A stretch of 36,517 nt of DNA from a virus, in IMG/VR virus record IMGVR_UViG_3300027829_000003, positions 1 to 36,517 of that record. One strand, written 5' to 3'. Of the stretch, positions 6,486 through 17,183 are shown piece after piece (the stretch's first letter is position 1; each line of letters starts with the position of its first letter). The position numbers and the translations under genes are program-made. A model generated the notes under the pieces. It was not told the DNA's origin. It saw nothing but the letters and a program-made list of their open reading frames with translations, and did no database searches.

Positions 6486-8621
6486 TTGATATTGGAGGCT
6501 GTTATTTCTTTCTATTACCCCCCATGGAATAATGCATTAGAGCCGAATCAAGGCAACGTAAGACAATGGTTAGACAATTTGTATTCCAAATTTCAGCCTA
6601 TTGAGCAATCACGTTGGAATCAATCCAATATTGATACTTTATTTTATGCAGGCTCACAGACATTTGTGAACCGTTACTTTAATTTCAGCCCTACAACTAG
6701 TTATCAGCAGTATTATTTCAACATAATACAACAACCTATCAACATGATAACGGGATATGAGCGGCAACATAGAAAGAATTTCTCATATGTATCTTGTGAA
6801 GGAGCTGACCCACAGACTACAGATCAATATACAAAGCTTATTACACATGCTGCTAACATGGGGTGCATTCATGAGCAGAAATCAAAAGCTAAGGAATTAG
6901 CAGCTGTAGCCGGACTTTGTTTAGTACAACCCTATCTTGATTATTCATGGAATGATGCTGCACAAGGCGAATTAAAAGTTAAGGTATGGGAATATAACTC
7001 ATTTCTTGTCGATCCATATTTCCGCAATCCGGATATGTCAGATTGTCAATTTGTCTGGTGTCAGGAATATATTAGTAAAAAAGAAGCAGAAAATCGATTT
7101 CCGGATAAACTAGAACAAATTGCTCCAATGGCAGGAACACCACAAAGATATGGATCATTCTATTTTCTGCCAGAAAATTATAACATGGCAAGAAATGATC
7201 TAATGGTACTTTCTTACGTCTGGTATCGATGGAAAACAAAGAAAAAGCGCCTTTATTCTCATTCTCGTAATCAATTCTTTGAATTCGGTAAAGAAGCTGA
7301 TACTGATGCGATATTATATAATATACCCGACATGGAACTTGTTGAAGTGGAAACTCCTACTTGGAAACTTGCAGTTGTGCTTAATGATCAACTCATGTTT
7401 CAGGGAGATAATCCATTAGGCTTCGACGAATGTCCATTCATTCCCTATTTTTGGAACTATGAACCGCATATAAATTATTACGATTTGCGTGTTAGAAGTC
7501 TTGTTAGAACGATGAGAGATCCTCAATTTTTATATAATTACAAAGTAATCACTAATAACGATATTGCTGCAGCAACAATTAATGCAGGTTGGAAGAGAAA
7601 AGTTGGTGCTGTTGCTAATGAAGATAATTTAAAGAAATCTGGTCAGGGTTGGGATGTTTTAATCAACCAAGGTTATGAGATGACGGATGTCGAAAAGATT
7701 ATCCCTAGCGCAGTTCCGGAATCCGATTTAGCTTTAGCAGAACAAATGAGGACTTTGATCTATGAAACTTCTGGTATCAACATAGAAAATTGGTCAGGTC
7801 AGCAAGATAAACAAGTTTCTAGCCTCACAGTACTTCTTAAACAGGCTGCTAACTTGATGGTATTTCAGAAATATTTCGATCAATGGGATTTTTCAGATAA
7901 ATTACTTGGAGATCGGTTGCTTAAGGTTACACTTAACAACTGGAATGCAGAGAAAGTAAAACTATATATAGGGGAAGAACCTTCACCATACTTCTACAGC
8001 AAGATATTTTCAAATTATCAATGCATTGTTGAAGAGTCGGATTTAACACCGACACAGCAAAACTTGCAGGCCCAACAAATGATGGATATGAATCAGGCAT
8101 TTGGAAGAGAAGTATTTCCACCATCTATGATTATTCCTAAGCTAAATGTGACAGGCAAGGCAGAGATTATCGAATTCCTACAGCAACAAGAGCAAGCTTC
8201 TAGTCAACAACAGCAAGATATGCAAATGGTTCAACATGCATTAGAAGATGCAAAACTTAAGGAATTATATAGCCGTGCAACCAACAATATAGCAAGTGCA
8301 AAAGAAAGATATGGTCGTTTTGAAAGTAATATTGGACTACTTGAAGAGCGTATGGCAGAAGTTTCAAAGAATAGATCACTTTCTACAAAAGCTAAGATGG
8401 AAGCTCTAGAAAAAATGATTGATGTGATTGCTAAGTATGGTGAAATTGAAACAATGTTGAAGATAAATGACATTGATTCTTTTGACTATCAGCAACAGAA
8501 AACAGAGGAGCATGATAAAGAAAGAGCACACAAAGATGCTCAGTCAAATGAATTCATGTCAAAAATAATGGGAGAAATGGGACAAAAGAACACTTCTCAA
8601 AATATGCAACAATCTATATAA
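6486..8621 (+). CDS. Portal protein (P22-like)
   Basis: About 711 residues, close to P22 gp1 (725). The N-terminal part (QNLYSKF-like region, RWNQSNIDTLFYAGSQ, RYFNFSP, then INMITGYERQHRKNFSYV) matches the conserved start of P22-type portals, where residues of the wing and crown precede the stem. The last 150 residues are a long helical, Gln/Lys-rich barrel-like tail (QQQEQASSQQQQDMQ onward). Twelve copies form the DNA entry ring. The start is uncertain: the first in-frame candidate is TTG 6486 without a ribosome site, while GGAGG at 6494-6498 points to ATT 6504, giving a protein beginning SFYYPPWNN. The stop is directly followed by a hairpin and an HNH gene. Confidence 0.9.
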   Translation: MILEAVISFYYPPWNNALEPNQGNVRQWLDNLYSKFQPIEQSRWNQSNIDTLFYAGSQTFVNRYFNFSPTTSYQQYYFNIIQQPINMITGYERQHRKNFSYVSCEGADPQTTDQYTKLITHAANMGCIHEQKSKAKELAAVAGLCLVQPYLDYSWNDAAQGELKVKVWEYNSFLVDPYFRNPDMSDCQFVWCQEYISKKEAENRFPDKLEQIAPMAGTPQRYGSFYFLPENYNMARNDLMVLSYVWYRWKTKKKRLYSHSRNQFFEFGKEADTDAILYNIPDMELVEVETPTWKLAVVLNDQLMFQGDNPLGFDECPFIPYFWNYEPHINYYDLRVRSLVRTMRDPQFLYNYKVITNNDIAAATINAGWKRKVGAVANEDNLKKSGQGWDVLINQGYEMTDVEKIIPSAVPESDLALAEQMRTLIYETSGINIENWSGQQDKQVSSLTVLLKQAANLMVFQKYFDQWDFSDKLLGDRLLKVTLNNWNAEKVKLYIGEEPSPYFYSKIFSNYQCIVEESDLTPTQQNLQAQQMMDMNQAFGREVFPPSMIIPKLNVTGKAEIIEFLQQQEQASSQQQQDMQMVQHALEDAKLKELYSRATNNIASAKERYGRFESNIGLLEERMAEVSKNRSLSTKAKMEALEKMIDVIAKYGEIETMLKINDIDSFDYQQQKTEEHDKERAHKDAQSNEFMSKIMGEMGQKNTSQNMQQSI

Positions 8622-8645: not shown

Positions 8646-9167
8646 ATGAAAAAATGTAAATATTGTGATAATGAATTTATTCCTAAAAAAGATGGACTAT
8701 TTTGCGATTCCAAATGTTATAGAAAATATTGGCAAAATAATTTGAAAGAAGAAAATCCAATTTTGTGGAGAAAAAGATTAGATGCACAAAGCAAAAGATC
8801 GAGAGAAAAAGTTAGAAAAAGATTGGGACTGCCTTTAGATTATCCACAAATTAATGAATCAGGAAAAGGATATAAATTAAAAGAAGGATATAAGTTCTTG
8901 TTAATGAAGGATCATCCTAATTGTGCCAAATCTGGATATGTAGCAGAGCATATTATGATAATGACTAAATTTCTTGACAGAGCACTAAATGACAAAGAAA
9001 CAGTTCATCATATAAATGGAATTCGAGATGATAATCGTATAGAAAATCTAGAATTATGGTCATATTCTCACCCTTATGGACAACGGATAGAAGATAAAAT
9101 TGAATGGTGCATTGAATTCTTACAGCAATATGGATATAAAGTGATAAAACAAGCACAAGGAATATAA
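8646..9167 (+). CDS. HNH homing endonuclease
   Basis: 173 residues. The N-terminus is a zinc knuckle with Cys4, Cys7, Cys20 and Cys24 (CKYC ... CDSKC). A basic linker follows (about 42-60). The HNH nuclease core has VHHINGIRDDNRIENLELW: His121-His122 with Asn124 and Asn130/Asn134, the pattern of HNH_3-type free-standing homing nucleases that nick or cut DNA using one metal. It is inserted between the portal gene and small virion genes, typical of a mobile endonuclease. It appears intact. Its ribosome site is within a hairpin (8621-8645), which may limit expression. It probably cuts endonuclease-free relatives near this site; the target cannot be read from the window. Confidence 0.88.
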   Translation: MKKCKYCDNEFIPKKDGLFCDSKCYRKYWQNNLKEENPILWRKRLDAQSKRSREKVRKRLGLPLDYPQINESGKGYKLKEGYKFLLMKDHPNCAKSGYVAEHIMIMTKFLDRALNDKETVHHINGIRDDNRIENLELWSYSHPYGQRIEDKIEWCIEFLQQYGYKVIKQAQGI

Positions 9168-11679: not shown

Positions 11680-11820
11680 GCTTTCGCACGCACAAGTGTT
11701 ATTGTGTACTCCGCGTTATTGAAGGTTCGCAACTTCTTGCCCGATATGATCGAGAATAGATGTAGTTAGGTTCGTCTACCGATCGTCATGTCAATATCAA
11801 CATTCGACCACGGAGTTGAA
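11680..11820 (+). promoter_or_regulatory. Long structured 5' leader of the capsid mRNA
   Basis: About 135 bases lie between the promoter and the capsid start. They include the hairpins CACAA/TTGTG (about 11692-11707) and GAAGGTT/AACTTC (about 11719-11734), the arms CGAT/ATCG (about 11742-11752), and several TCG-rich loops. The sequence is less AT-rich than its surroundings. The ribosome site GGAG (11812-11815) serves ATG 11821. A stability or control element for abundant capsid mRNA is a reasonable inference. Confidence 0.45.
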
Positions 11821-12180
11821 ATGTCGATTACGACTACTGGCAATTTGGGACCTTTGATTCTACAAAGTTTAGCTCCTGCTATGCTTTATGTCCCAACGCC
11901 TACAATGAATTACATTACGATATGCGACAAAGTTAGTATGCCAGCTAATGGTGGTACAACTATTCGCTTTATGCGCCCAAGAGCGCTACAACCGCCCACT
12001 GTACAGTTGGGTAACAGCGGTATAGATCCCCCTGCACAAGTGCCACAACGTGACATCATCGATGCACAAATGGCTTTCTTTGGTACTGGGTGTATCATTA
12101 ACGAACAAGTTATTCTTCAAGACCAAGAAGGTGTATTAGCTTGGATATCAGAACGCTTGGCTGTTGCCATGAGACAGGCT
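11821..12180 (+). CDS. Major capsid protein, exon 1
   Basis: 120 codons. The frame opens at ATG 11788, but ATG 11821 has GGAG 5 bases upstream and is preferred (MSITTTGNLGPLILQSLAPAM). It contains the N-arm and beginning of an HK97-fold coat protein (VSMPANGGTTIRFMRPRALQPPTVQLG), of the P22/N4-like group. It stops at TGA only because a group I intron begins at 12181; the reading continues in exon 2 at 12997. The joined protein reads ...AVAMRQA-EDLILRDYIVSAAS and has about 323 residues. It forms the icosahedral shell around the scaffold. Confidence 0.8.
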
Positions 12181-12996
12181 TGAGATAATAGGCCTGTATA
12201 AATCTGACCTGATTGACTTGGAAACCCTCACTGCCGAAGCAGGAGGGCAACAAGGGCCAAGGGTTTAATTAGTTTGCAAGGAATTAAAATGTTCAATATT
12301 TGCTTTAAGAAATCCTTTAGCATTAAGATAGCTCATCTCAATTCTAATATCTTCTCTAAGCGCGATTATTTCTGGATTAAGAGGTGTATGTGCTCCATAT
12401 CCTTTTTGCAATTCAAATGTCTTCCTAAATTCGATCATCAACTCAGCTTGTCTTTTTTTAAGAACAAGATAAGGCAAAAGTTGAGTGCAAATATCGACTA
12501 CACGATGACCTTGAATAACCCATTCATAAATCCAACGCTCATGAGTAGAATTTTTCTTAAAAATAGATCTTCGATGTTTTTTAGACTTATTGAGATTACC
12601 AAAATGTTTCTCAATCCAGTCAAAAAGTTCCTTTTTTGTATTGGAAATGTTGAGTACACCTCTAAAAGAAGGATTTTGATATCGGTTATACTTAGCAGGA
12701 TTAACACGATAAATACAAATAGATCCTTCTCCATCAACAATTCCAGCAAGATATGCAAGTTTGAGAGGATCATAAATGATCTTTTCATAAGCAATTTCAG
12801 GCATTTACATTCTCCTTTGTTATGCGCGTAGATGTTTGTATATTGTTGCATAAATCTGATTAAATGTCTAGGCTGAACGACTTAGGCGGTTAGACTCTAG
12901 AAATAGAGATGCGAAAGTCTGATCTCGGACTATATATAAAATCCGAGAGATAGGCAGAAATGACCTATCCACGCAGTAATGCGGGGTAACAGTTTG
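12181..12996 (+). mobile_element. Group I intron in the capsid gene
   Basis: The 5' splice site is marked by P1: exon bases ACAGGCT (12174-12180) pair with GGCCTGT (12191-12197), including the diagnostic T-G pair at the splice site. P5-like stems follow (CCCTC/GAGGG with inner CTGC-CGAA-GCAG; CTTGG/CCAAG). Near the 3' end are AGACT/AGTCT around CTCTA-GAAA-TAGAG (P7/P8 region), CTCGGA/TCCGAG (12924-12947), GATAGG/CCTATC (12949-12969) and CGCA-GTAA-TGCG. The 3' end is inferred at G12996 because the phase must be zero and the protein then reads RQA-EDLILRDY; G12981 or G12984 are alternatives. The intron carries a homing endonuclease on the opposite strand. Confidence 0.85.
12265..12804 (-). CDS. 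LAGLIDADG homing endonuclease (antisense in intron)
   Basis: 179 residues. It has one clear LAGLIDADG motif, AYLAGIVDGEGSI (residues about 17-29), with the catalytic Asp and Glu positions. The second half carries the family-typical ICTQLLPYLVLKKRQAELMIEF (about 124-145). A single motif implies that it works as a homodimer. ATG 12804 has AAAGGAG upstream. The gene is transcribed against the capsid gene, so it cannot be translated from capsid mRNA and needs its own promoter in the intron or downstream; a weak one may lie at 12820-12870. It spreads the intron by cutting intronless capsid genes. Confidence 0.9.
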   Translation of the reverse strand: MPEIAYEKIIYDPLKLAYLAGIVDGEGSICIYRVNPAKYNRYQNPSFRGVLNISNTKKELFDWIEKHFGNLNKSKKHRRSIFKKNSTHERWIYEWVIQGHRVVDICTQLLPYLVLKKRQAELMIEFRKTFELQKGYGAHTPLNPEIIALREDIRIEMSYLNAKGFLKANIEHFNSLQTN

Positions 12997-13608
12997 GAAG
13001 ATCTTATATTGAGAGACTATATTGTATCAGCTGCTAGTCAGCTTAATGCTGGCGGTGGTTCTAATGGTGATAATCCCACAAACTTAGGTGTGTCGGATTT
13101 CTCATTAGTAGCTACTACTCTTGATACGAATAACGCCTACAAATTCATGAGCGGTATTGAAGGTATGGATAGATTCGGTACAGGTCCTGTAAGAAGTGCA
13201 TATTTTATGCTCAGTTCTACAGAGCTTCAAACCGATTTTGATGGACTTACTGGTACAGGTTTCTTGAACCAGTGGAACTATCCAAACAATAGTTCTGCAC
13301 TTCCTTCAGAATATGGTTCTGTATTTAACATTCGTATCCTTACAAGTTCTGAAGCACCTGTAGCACGTGGTGCATCAGCTAACGGCCAAGACGTGTATTA
13401 TAACACAGTCGTGGGTAAGCAAGCGATCACACACATCAATCAGGACGGCTATAGCATGAACCTGATTTATCGTGATCCTTACTATTCTGGAATGCTTGCT
13501 CAGAACGCAACTTTGGCGGTTAAATTCGCTCAAGCACAAGCAATTACGCAAGATACAGCTATCAGAAATCTTCTCAGCACTCGGCTCTCTGCCGTTGCTG
13601 GACCATAA
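12997..13608 (+). CDS. Major capsid protein, exon 2
   Basis: About 203 codons to TAA. It begins EDLILRDYIVSAASQLNAGGGSNGDNPTNLG when joined to exon 1, which resembles the conserved helix and glycine-rich turn of P22-like coat proteins (E-D-x-L-x-R-D). It contains the P-domain and A-domain part (SGIEGMDRFGTGPVRSAYFML), ending RLSAVAGP. The frame also has an ATG at 12979 inside the intron, which is a false start. The next gene begins 13 bases later with AGGAGG. Confidence 0.8.
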   Translation, partial: EDLILRDYIVSAASQLNAGGGSNGDNPTNLGVSDFSLVATTLDTNNAYKFMSGIEGMDRFGTGPVRSAYFMLSSTELQTDFDGLTGTGFLNQWNYPNNSSALPSEYGSVFNIRILTSSEAPVARGASANGQDVYYNTVVGKQAITHINQDGYSMNLIYRDPYYSGMLAQNATLAVKFAQAQAITQDTAIRNLLSTRLSAVAGP

Positions 13609-13623
13609 AATAGGAGGTGGATG

Positions 13624-14769
13624 ATGACTGAATATAATAAAATGGCAAAAGGTAAATTCACATCAACTGGAAAAGCGCAAATGGTTACTTTGCCCTTTGT
13701 TCCGGATTTTGTCGAACTTATCAATGATACATCGATGCATGCACCTGCGAACCATGGAATCCCAAGAGCTTGGTGGGATGTTAATATGGGACAAGGATTT
13801 GCTGATTGTTTATTGTTTAACGGAACTCCAGTTTTATTGACTGGACAAGTTCAAGTAAATGGTATCAGCACATTCCAAGCAGGAACTTTGCTTCAATATG
13901 GGCCAGTATATCAACATACAGGTTCTACTGACTTTTCAATCACTGCTGCTAATCCTGCTGTAGTTACAACAACGACACCTCATGGTTTAGCGACAGGCGA
14001 TGTAGTTATTTTCCAAAACCTAGCTGAAACTTCAACGACAGGTATGCAGCAAATTGCAGGCATTCCTTTCGAAGTTACTGTAACTGGAGCTATGACATTT
14101 TCTATTAATTGGGATGCGTCTGGTACTAATTACACAGCATTTAATACATCAACATCGACGAATAATGTAGGTTCATATAAAAAAGTTCTTTATCCAAACC
14201 TATATCTTCCCGGTGTTAACTTTGTTAGCTTCATTACTACAGGAACAACGACGACTATTCAGACAACAACACAGCACAATTTTGTTGTTGGACAGGAAGT
14301 AGCGTTTAGGATTCCTTCGGTATGGGGAACAACACAGCTGAATTCATTACCAAATAATGTGATTCCTGGTTCTCCAATTTATGGATATGTTCAATCGGTT
14401 ACAGATTATTTGACTTTTGTGGTGAATATCAATTCAACAGGATATACCGCATTTAATCCTAATCAACCATTTGCTTCATATCACGGAGAAAAGTTCCCTC
14501 AAGTAGTGGCTGTAGGTGATGTGAATAGTGGTGGATTTCCATATACTGGAAATGCACTATATCCTTCGCCTACTTATTCTTATGCTACGCTCAATGATAG
14601 TACAACTATCAACGGGCCAGCAATACAGGGAGCCTATTTTAATAATACAAGACAAGGATTTATCGTTGGTGCGGGTGCTACAACAAACGATTCTGCATCG
14701 GTTCTTGTTGGAGCAGCTGAAAATGTAATATATTGGAGAGCTTATCTTCATGATTTTAGTTCACCATAA
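13624..14769 (+). CDS. Virion protein with repeated beta-domains
   Basis: About 381 residues. Two start codons adjoin (13621, 13624); ATG 13624 sits at the better distance from AGGAGG. The N-terminal 75 residues include AWWDVNMGQGFADCLLFNG. Two beta-rich modules follow: ITAANPAVVTTTTPHGLATGDVV (about 105-190) is like the ubiquitin-activating-enzyme FCCH-type repeats of phage tail proteins, and TTGTTTTIQTTTQHNFVVGQEVAFRIPS (about 200-300) recurs in the next gene. The C-terminal part (GAYFNNTRQGFIVGAGA...VIYWRAYLHD) is a separate domain. Its position after the capsid gene suggests a head decoration or tail component. Confidence 0.7.
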   Translation: MTEYNKMAKGKFTSTGKAQMVTLPFVPDFVELINDTSMHAPANHGIPRAWWDVNMGQGFADCLLFNGTPVLLTGQVQVNGISTFQAGTLLQYGPVYQHTGSTDFSITAANPAVVTTTTPHGLATGDVVIFQNLAETSTTGMQQIAGIPFEVTVTGAMTFSINWDASGTNYTAFNTSTSTNNVGSYKKVLYPNLYLPGVNFVSFITTGTTTTIQTTTQHNFVVGQEVAFRIPSVWGTTQLNSLPNNVIPGSPIYGYVQSVTDYLTFVVNINSTGYTAFNPNQPFASYHGEKFPQVVAVGDVNSGGFPYTGNALYPSPTYSYATLNDSTTINGPAIQGAYFNNTRQGFIVGAGATTNDSASVLVGAAENVIYWRAYLHDFSSP

Positions 14770-15950: not shown

Positions 15951-17183
15951 ATCAATCTGTTACAAGATATAATAACTTACGTTCGTCGCATAATTAAAAG
16001 TCCTTCTAATGCTGTTATTTCTGATGCATTGATCATAGATTACATCAATCGATTCTGGATTATGGATGTTGATGCTAGAATTCAGCTATTTGATTTAAAA
16101 ACTCAATATCAGTTTCAGACTACTCCTGGATTTGATCAATATAATATGCCCTTGTATAATCTTCAAACAGAACTAGGTTCTCAAGCAATAAGTTATTATC
16201 CTGTTTATCAGGGGTTTCTGGACCCAGTATATGTGAATGGCATTCAAGTTCCTTTTCAGACAGATAAAACAACATTTTATAATATTTGGCCGAACATTGT
16301 TCAGCAGATGAATGTTGTCGCAGTCGGAAATAACACAAAAGGTCCTTACAATTTTACTTTCCCAATAGCACCAAACAATACAACACCATTAACGACGCCA
16401 TTTCAGTATATCCTCAGAGGTCATATTGATGTTAATGGGATTACTGCTTTTGCTACTAGTCAGGGAATATATCAAGATCCTCCTGTTGTCACATCGGTGG
16501 AAGCTTCTACAACTATTCCTGCAGTTCCTGTAACTAATGCATTTCCTCAAGTCTATATCACGACTAATGGAACGGATGGTTCTAGTATAATTGTGACAGA
16601 TAGTGGTCAATTTCTTTCTGGAAATCAAGACTTAGGTCTTTTAATGGAACAAGGCACGGCTCCTAATGGAAATTTGCCTTTAACGAATGGTCCCTTACCT
16701 AATTATAGTACTACACAGAATGTTATCAATTACTTTACAGGGCAAGTTTTTAATCTTTATTTTCCTCAGACTGTTCCTGCTGGAGTAAATATCAATGCTC
16801 AATGTTTTAATTTCCAATGTGGTCTTCCTAGAGGGGTTCTGTTCAATAACAATACTCTTACCTTCAGAAGTCCTCCAGATCAGCAATATTTGATTCAATT
16901 AGATGCTTATCTTTCACCAGCTGGATTCCTAGCAACAAACCAGGCAATTCAATTTGCATATATGTGCGAGTATATTGCTCGTGGCGCTGCTAGAAAAATA
17001 CTTTCAGATACTGGCGATGTCGAACAATTTCAATTCTATGAGCCTTTCTTCATAGAACAAGAACAACTTGTATGGAAACGCAGCCAGAGGCAGTTTACAG
17101 CCTCCAGGACGCAGACAATTTACAGCCAAGGGATAAACCAAGGCCAGTCAGGATTTAACAACTTAGGTGGTAGTACCCTCTAA
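15951..17183 (+). CDS. Head-tail connector or tail adaptor protein
   Basis: About 410 residues. The first helical segment, INLLQDIITYVRRIIKSPSNAVISD (about 1-25), and DYINRFWIMDVDARIQLFDLK (about 29-49) form a helix bundle as in gp4-type adaptor proteins of P22-like phages. The rest is beta-rich. The first canonical start (TTG 16029) would delete the conserved helix, so translation must begin earlier: AGGTG at 15942-15946 points to ATC 15951. Loss of an inserted HNH gene (see 15879) may have replaced the original start. The C-terminus is Gln/Ser-rich. It probably joins the portal to the tail. Confidence 0.7.
   Translation: MNLLQDIITYVRRIIKSPSNAVISDALIIDYINRFWIMDVDARIQLFDLKTQYQFQTTPGFDQYNMPLYNLQTELGSQAISYYPVYQGFLDPVYVNGIQVPFQTDKTTFYNIWPNIVQQMNVVAVGNNTKGPYNFTFPIAPNNTTPLTTPFQYILRGHIDVNGITAFATSQGIYQDPPVVTSVEASTTIPAVPVTNAFPQVYITTNGTDGSSIIVTDSGQFLSGNQDLGLLMEQGTAPNGNLPLTNGPLPNYSTTQNVINYFTGQVFNLYFPQTVPAGVNINAQCFNFQCGLPRGVLFNNNTLTFRSPPDQQYLIQLDAYLSPAGFLATNQAIQFAYMCEYIARGAARKILSDTGDVEQFQFYEPFFIEQEQLVWKRSQRQFTASRTQTIYSQGINQGQSGFNNLGGSTL

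Follow-up and report, generated by a model that had tools for sequence, protein, structure and literature searches.

The window, as we call the whole stretch of viral DNA analysed here (36,517 nt, IMG/VR record IMGVR_UViG_3300027829_000003), contains a gene for the major capsid protein (MCP; 11788-13608, + strand) that carries an insert of 816 nt. The insert lies between codon 131 (GCT, ending at 12180) and codon 132 (GAA, starting at 12997), and its first codon is TGA, so that the unspliced capsid frame is closed immediately (...MRQA-stop). In the 80 best relatives of the viral collection (83-95% identity) the junction is uninterrupted in 80 of 80 cases and reads GCN|GAR, an exact empty site from which it follows that precise removal of the insert restores a normal capsid protein. 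The window record holds a single capsid-gene match. The features of the locus are listed below (among the helices, P1, P6a, P8, P9.1 and P9.2 were assigned from the sequence, the others as stated).

11788-12180, + strand: capsid exon 1, codons 1-131, which in the best 80 relatives runs straight into exon 2
12174-12180, + strand: 5' strand of P1, ACAGGCU, in the exon and including the U preceding the 5' splice site
12181-12996, + strand: predicted group I intron, 816 nt, first codon TGA, last nucleotide G
12191-12197, + strand: internal guide GGCCUGU, the 3' strand of P1
12203-12209, + strand: 5' strand of P3, UCUGACC, 7/7 pairs with 12888-12894
12217-12220, + strand: 5' strand of P4, CUUG, partner 12251-12254 (100% paired, double changes in 3/4 pairs)
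12225-12227, + strand: 5' strand of P5, CCC, partner 12245-12247 (covariation)
12255-12258, + strand: 5' strand of P6, GGCC, partner GGCU at 12871-12874 (100% paired, double changes in 3/4 pairs)
12264-12272, + strand: 5' strand of P6a, UUUAAUUAG, partner CUGAUUAAA at 12856-12864
12265-12804, - strand: LAGLIDADG homing endonuclease gene, 179 aa, single motif LAYLAGIVDGEGS, I-CreI/I-MsoI type
12879-12883, + strand: 5' strand of P7, GACUU, partner AAGUC at 12915-12919 (99.5% paired, double changes in 3/5 pairs)
12888-12894, + strand: 3' strand of P3, GGUUAGA (shuffled-partner comparison)
12895-12908, + strand: P8 hairpin, CUCUA-GAAA-UAGAG
12924-12947, + strand: P9 hairpin, CUCGGA...UCCGAG (five outer pairs 100% paired, double changes in 4/5)
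12949-12969, + strand: P9.1 hairpin, GAUAGG...CCUAUC
12972-12983, + strand: P9.2 hairpin, CGCA...UGCG
12997-13608, + strand: capsid exon 2, codons 132-334; this 3' half of the protein matches the major-head-protein family phrog_1357 (E 8.6e-12)

A first-pass annotation of this DNA had described the capsid gene as split by a group I intron running from T12181 to G12996, boundaries that proved essentially correct when the splice junction was compared with the relatives. Its P1 also stands as given there, the exon sequence ACAGGCU pairing with GGCCUGU with a U.G pair at the splice site. Both hallmarks of group I introns are present (the U12180.G12191 pair within P1 and the terminal G12996). The loop of P6a is occupied by the endonuclease gene, and a hairpin CUGC-CGAA-GCAG is found between the two P5 strands, where relatives have an in-frame GCU GCA UAA. 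On the 3' side of P9.2 a GGGGUAACAGUUUG-type tail precedes the 3' splice site, GUAACAG being conserved in the intron family; P10 of the window intron is weak (AUAAUA against the 3' exon GAAGAU).

The core was assessed in an alignment of 38 sequences, made up of the ends of the window intron and 37 ORF-less family members taken from relatives. Standard pairs occupy 99.2% of the cells of P4, P5, P6, P7 and P9, with double changes in 15/21 pairs, as compared with at most 43% paired when the partners were slid by 1-3 columns. For P3, the mean is 6.87 of 7 positions paired versus 4.90 with the partners shuffled among the introns (n=38). The P3/P7 pseudoknot is accompanied by P4-P6 and P8, the last visible directly at 12895-12908. 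A profile trained without the window detects the window intron at its two ends (E 1.4e-18 and E 7.7e-13), and a profile containing the window matches the introns of the mycobacteriophages Baka (E 1.3e-5) and, weakly, LittleE (E 0.0024). On the other hand, the Rfam model Intron_gpI (RF00028), whose failure to match had been named in the first-pass annotation as grounds for rejecting a group I intron, does not recognize the window intron at any threshold tried (neither the gathering threshold nor E<=10), which taken literally is that very outcome. The same model likewise fails on ORF-less members of the family in L090-L092 and L097, and scores 79 bits on a capsid intron in L083. Since the window-free profile and covariation find the core, and since ORF-less members are missed as well, the Rfam miss reflects a limit of sensitivity, and a match to RF00028 cannot be taken as defining. 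With the empty site in 80/80 relatives and the covarying P3-P9 core, we regard it as very probable that the window carries a group I intron in its capsid gene together with an antisense endonuclease gene. The intron would be expected to splice and, given its endonuclease, to home.

The minus-strand reading frame encodes a 179-aa protein with a single LAGLIDADG motif, its relatives being of the homodimer type. Its match to Pfam LAGLIDADG_1 is weak (E 0.0094), while it matches phrog_5046 with E 2.7e-23 and the I-MsoI/I-CreI structure chains with E 1.2e-10 (phmmer); this bears out the antisense LAGLIDADG gene reported originally. The Shine-Dalgarno sequence ascribed to it is found as well, AAGGAG (+ strand 12812-12817) lying 7 nt 5' of the ATG. 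Seven close relatives of the endonuclease (81-90% identity) are all located inside introns of the same capsid gene (7/7). It had further been suggested that transcription of the endonuclease gene, or its RNA, collides or pairs with the capsid pre-mRNA and thereby regulates splicing. This possibility is in keeping with the antisense orientation of the gene in every site-131/133 copy of the endonuclease family examined, but we consider it highly improbable. In fact, introns of the same family that are ORF-less or smaller occur at the identical site (202 nt in L092, 366 nt in L090), which implies that the intron is independent of the endonuclease gene; promoter-like sites are seen only at chance frequency; among the endonuclease genes of neighbouring capsid introns both orientations are represented, that of the L091 insert at aa 115 being in sense; and the LittleE capsid intron, of the same layout, splices efficiently (PMC3706429). 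Control of splicing by transcriptional collision is therefore unsupported.

The antisense location itself, presented at the outset as exceptional, is so only in part. An antisense LAGLIDADG gene within a phage capsid intron is already known from LittleE: its capsid intron is 819 bp long with a bottom-strand LAGLIDADG gene, and splicing was established by RT-PCR and N-terminal sequencing (PMC3706429). The same source describes a tail-gene intron of Baka and Optimus, with splicing in Baka verified by RT-PCR, so that LittleE and Baka/Optimus resemble the window in having group I-type introns in virion genes (PMC3706429). A second precedent is offered by nuclear rDNA group I introns of Didymium, in which the endonuclease gene is antisense to the ribozyme; these differ from the window intron in residing in protist rRNA genes, in encoding a His-Cys endonuclease and in carrying it as an insertion in P9 (PMC9548176).

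Inserts in the relatives were mapped by a splice-aware dynamic programme aligning the capsid protein with the assembled DNA of each relative. This yielded 48 distinct intron-bearing capsid genes with 1-6 inserts each, at 29 positions in all; 65 full-length intron-less capsid genes served as the comparison set. Beyond capsid genes, the intron profile matched only two portal genes (L013 and L011), LittleE, Baka and the end of one contig (L184). Judging by these matches, the window intron belongs to a family that is found mostly in the capsid gene of its phage group. Capsid codon 101 is occupied in L083 (3825-4087, - strand) and in L153 by an intron of 1.26-1.27 kb, the L083 copy being the one that scores 79 bits. 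As for the portal genes, that of L011 is intron-bearing, and in that of L013 (430-707) a full group I intron is preceded, at a distance of about 43 nt, by a 30-nt core-less insert; this insert lies near the N-terminus and reads EQA-stop, with no Ala-Ala. An apparent 339-nt insert in L033, in the gene corresponding to the one at position 16029, was rejected as an intron since it encodes an in-frame protein domain; the homologs of 16029-17183 in L033 and L006 both have this domain insertion, after residue 52.

Many of the intron-bearing capsid genes contain a second kind of insert. We identified 33 core-less capsid inserts, 28 of them of 30-93 nt and 5, all at codon 115, of 946-976 nt. Each of these mini-introns starts after a U, ends in G and has a guide complementary to both exons (P1/P10). 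The P3-P8 elements are absent from the minis, which consist of P1 and a short tail; lacking a catalytic core, they are classed here only as group I-type substrates, not as group I introns. The guide is paired at 11.8 of 12 positions, versus 8.5 for shuffled inserts. At site 99, the 5-mer of the 3' exon varies (ACAGG, ACUGG, ACGGG, ACCGG) and the guide changes to match each variant, one of the eleven minis at this site (L146) mispairing at its last position. Most minis disrupt the reading frame and all bring in an in-frame stop. The capsid gene is nevertheless under strong purifying selection (pN/pS of 0.105, 0.061 and 0.147 for codons before, between and after the minis), and each of 16/16 records tested has one capsid match, which argues that the minis must be removed. 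Frameshift, assembly error and pseudogene formation were rejected as their origin in view of these single matches and pN/pS values and of the recurrence of minis at fixed sites in independent metagenomes.

A different way of coping with such an insert is known from gene 60 of phage T4, in which the ribosome bypasses a short insert within the gene; this insert is associated with MobA and forms a hairpin at the codon preceding it. The 30-93-nt inserts are of similar size, their hairpin takes in the last exon codon and they contain an in-frame stop, yet bypassing has very little probability in our estimate. The minis are without matching take-off and landing codons: for sites 99 and 115 the take-off codon is GGU, yet the final triplet is a Gly codon in 0/22 cases, and the inserts of L092/L093 would need take-off at GUU and landing at AUU or AUC. 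Moreover, the minis have a P10 pairing with the 3' exon, which covaries and is not needed for bypassing, and only excision restores the full protein.

The question of what removes the minis is addressed by their position. All of them (33/33) are immediately followed by a full intron, with an inner exon of 24-102 nt in between. Of the 35 genes in which codons 103-134 hold a full intron, 31 have a mini partner, versus 0/65 full-length intron-less genes (Fisher p 9e-24, with genes counted irrespective of shared ancestry and homing). This association suggests that it is probably the core of the following intron that removes each mini. Removal by other means, be it any capsid intron acting in trans or a host activity of another kind, is possible, if doubtful: it would agree with the lack of a pairing signal between the mini tail and the downstream core (16.6 versus 16.2 when swapped), but the location of a full group I intron directly after 33/33 capsid minis and the one portal mini (24-102 nt) speaks against it. 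Excision by the neighbouring core would resemble the engineered spliceozymes and trans excision-splicing ribozymes, in which pairing of the P1/P10 type likewise directs a group I core to cut out a short internal stretch (PMC4094466). In the engineered systems the guide is on the ribozyme, whereas here the natural mini carries it and the adjacent intron would serve as the ribozyme.

The five long inserts at codon 115 (L091, L107, L122, L155 and L176) illustrate a further variant. The 953-nt insert of L091, the one examined in detail, has a sense LAGLIDADG-like gene in the P1 loop, the guide and short ends of a mini, and no core; on this structure we classify it as a core-less intron that is mobile. 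L107, L122, L155 and L176 are similar to it in length and read-through tail, and a mini-type guide is found near the 3' end in 4/5 of the group, L091 included.

A second regularity emerged when the capsid frame was extended, without splicing, into each insert. (A full intron is called shielded when it lies directly after a mini.) This frame ends in Ala-Ala-stop in 31 of the 33 core-less inserts (the remaining two ending in AVA and LVA), in 37 of 41 full introns that lie beyond codon 50 without a preceding mini, in 3 of 33 shielded full introns and in none of 14 full introns situated no further than codon 50, all counts being irrespective of shared ancestry and homing. No Ala-Ala-stop occurs in the alternative frames. 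Examples are EYALLAAA-stop, CLAA-stop, YALGLAA-stop and ERLAA-stop for core-less inserts and LIDLELLAA-stop for a full intron. The short site-99 minis complete the tail in the downstream exon, in the shifted frame, in 7/7 cases (QAA-stop included), as compared with 1/68 intron-less genes and 0/4 long site-99 minis, which have an Ala-Ala-stop of their own. When all viral contigs were scanned for exact matches to the P5 motif as a DNA pattern, 17 contigs were returned. Fifteen of them fall outside the earlier set and all read LAA-stop in an open frame; a capsid match is detectable in 14 of these 15, down to 27% identity, and the remaining one (L184) ends at the contig edge. The other two (L097 and that of L085 (= L181)) read FLAA-stop in frame, at codon 174.

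The four exceptions among unshielded full introns are the window (MRQA-stop), L082, the codon-133 intron of L153 and the codon-101 intron of L083 (VSA-stop). The first three have neither an Ala-Ala tail nor a mini; for the window intron, this is likely explained by recent arrival through homing. The published phage introns share the ending in part. It is present in the cultured phages LittleE and Baka: unspliced, the LittleE capsid frame (L197:1346-1375) reads WNSVATAAA-stop and the Baka tail frame (L198, near 18217) reads LSDDLAAAAA-stop, while T4 nrdB (YVSFA-stop), T4 td (VFLG-stop) and the Tuc2009 capsid gene (codon 55; PAWS-stop) have no Ala-Ala, so that the rule is not universal among phage introns. 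In the report on LittleE and Baka/Optimus, one intron per gene and no core-less minis are described, and the Ala-Ala endings receive no mention in the available portion (PMC3706429). A search of the open-access literature found no paper on degron-coding phage introns.

A C-terminal Ala-Ala carboxylate is the main determinant of ClpXP degradation in tmRNA/ssrA tagging (PMC7652416), and the endings observed in the relatives, which include YALLAAA, LAA, IAA, MAA and VAA, look like an encoded ssrA-type degron. Whereas tmRNA appends its tag, the tail here is part of the intron sequence, and ordinary translation runs into it. Degradation of the Ala-Ala-tailed capsid fragments is what we infer from this likeness. 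Alternatively, Ala-Ala-stop could be a side effect of RNA structure, for instance of the hairpin CUGC-AUAA-GCAG or of the guide GUGCAGC, with no role as a degron. RNA structure is indeed a partial confounder, as in some full introns Ala-Ala-stop falls in the loop of this very hairpin; GCU GCA UAA lies within the P5 hairpin in many full introns, and LittleE and Baka have GCUGC-GUAA-GCAGC. However, the ending is found alike in the P5 loop, in P6, in the mini P1 loop and in the mini tail; its codons vary and all three stops are used; the short site-99 minis complete it in the exon (7/7 versus 1/68 and 0/4); and it is missing where the frame closes early or the intron is near the N-terminus. We therefore regard a purely structural origin as unlikely.

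Translation in bacteria begins before introns are spliced, and introns in genes for self-assembling proteins should consequently yield damaging fragments. In the scheme that we propose for the capsid pre-mRNA, the 5' splice site would be set by P1 and the exons joined by the P3-P9 core, restoring RQA-EDL. The endonuclease would be translated from a transcript of its own on the opposite strand and would cut intron-less capsid alleles, the repair of which would copy the intron in. Ribosomes trailing RNA polymerase would enter the intron before a ribozyme exists. In the relatives, the unspliced capsid frame would then run to an ssrA-like ...Ala-Ala, committing the truncated fragment to ClpXP-type proteolysis; where a full intron closes the frame without such a tag, the upstream 30-93-nt mini (P1, P10 and terminal G) would supply the Ala-Ala. 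If its removal needs the downstream core, a mini would be lost only from messages with a folded ribozyme. Overall, we hold with moderate confidence that the capsid introns of this phage group are wired to quality control, the Ala-Ala ending acting as a degron and the upstream mini, excised by the next ribozyme, as a folding checkpoint. If so, the puzzle of damaging fragments would find a direct solution in a degron encoded by the intron, which could also explain how up to six introns per capsid gene are tolerated. To our knowledge, trans splicing by group I cores has so far been seen only in engineered systems; if a neighbouring ribozyme does splice core-less introns, this would represent a natural step from self-splicing towards trans splicing.

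Elsewhere in the window, a free-standing HNH endonuclease gene (8646-9167, + strand; HNH_3, E 1.4e-7) is found downstream of a 711-aa ORF (6486-8621), and the gene directly 3' of the capsid gene (13621-14769, + strand) encodes a protein with an E1_FCCH-like domain (Pfam E 2.3e-10). In one relative (L084:4206-4353, - strand), two adjacent tRNA genes are located just upstream of the capsid gene.
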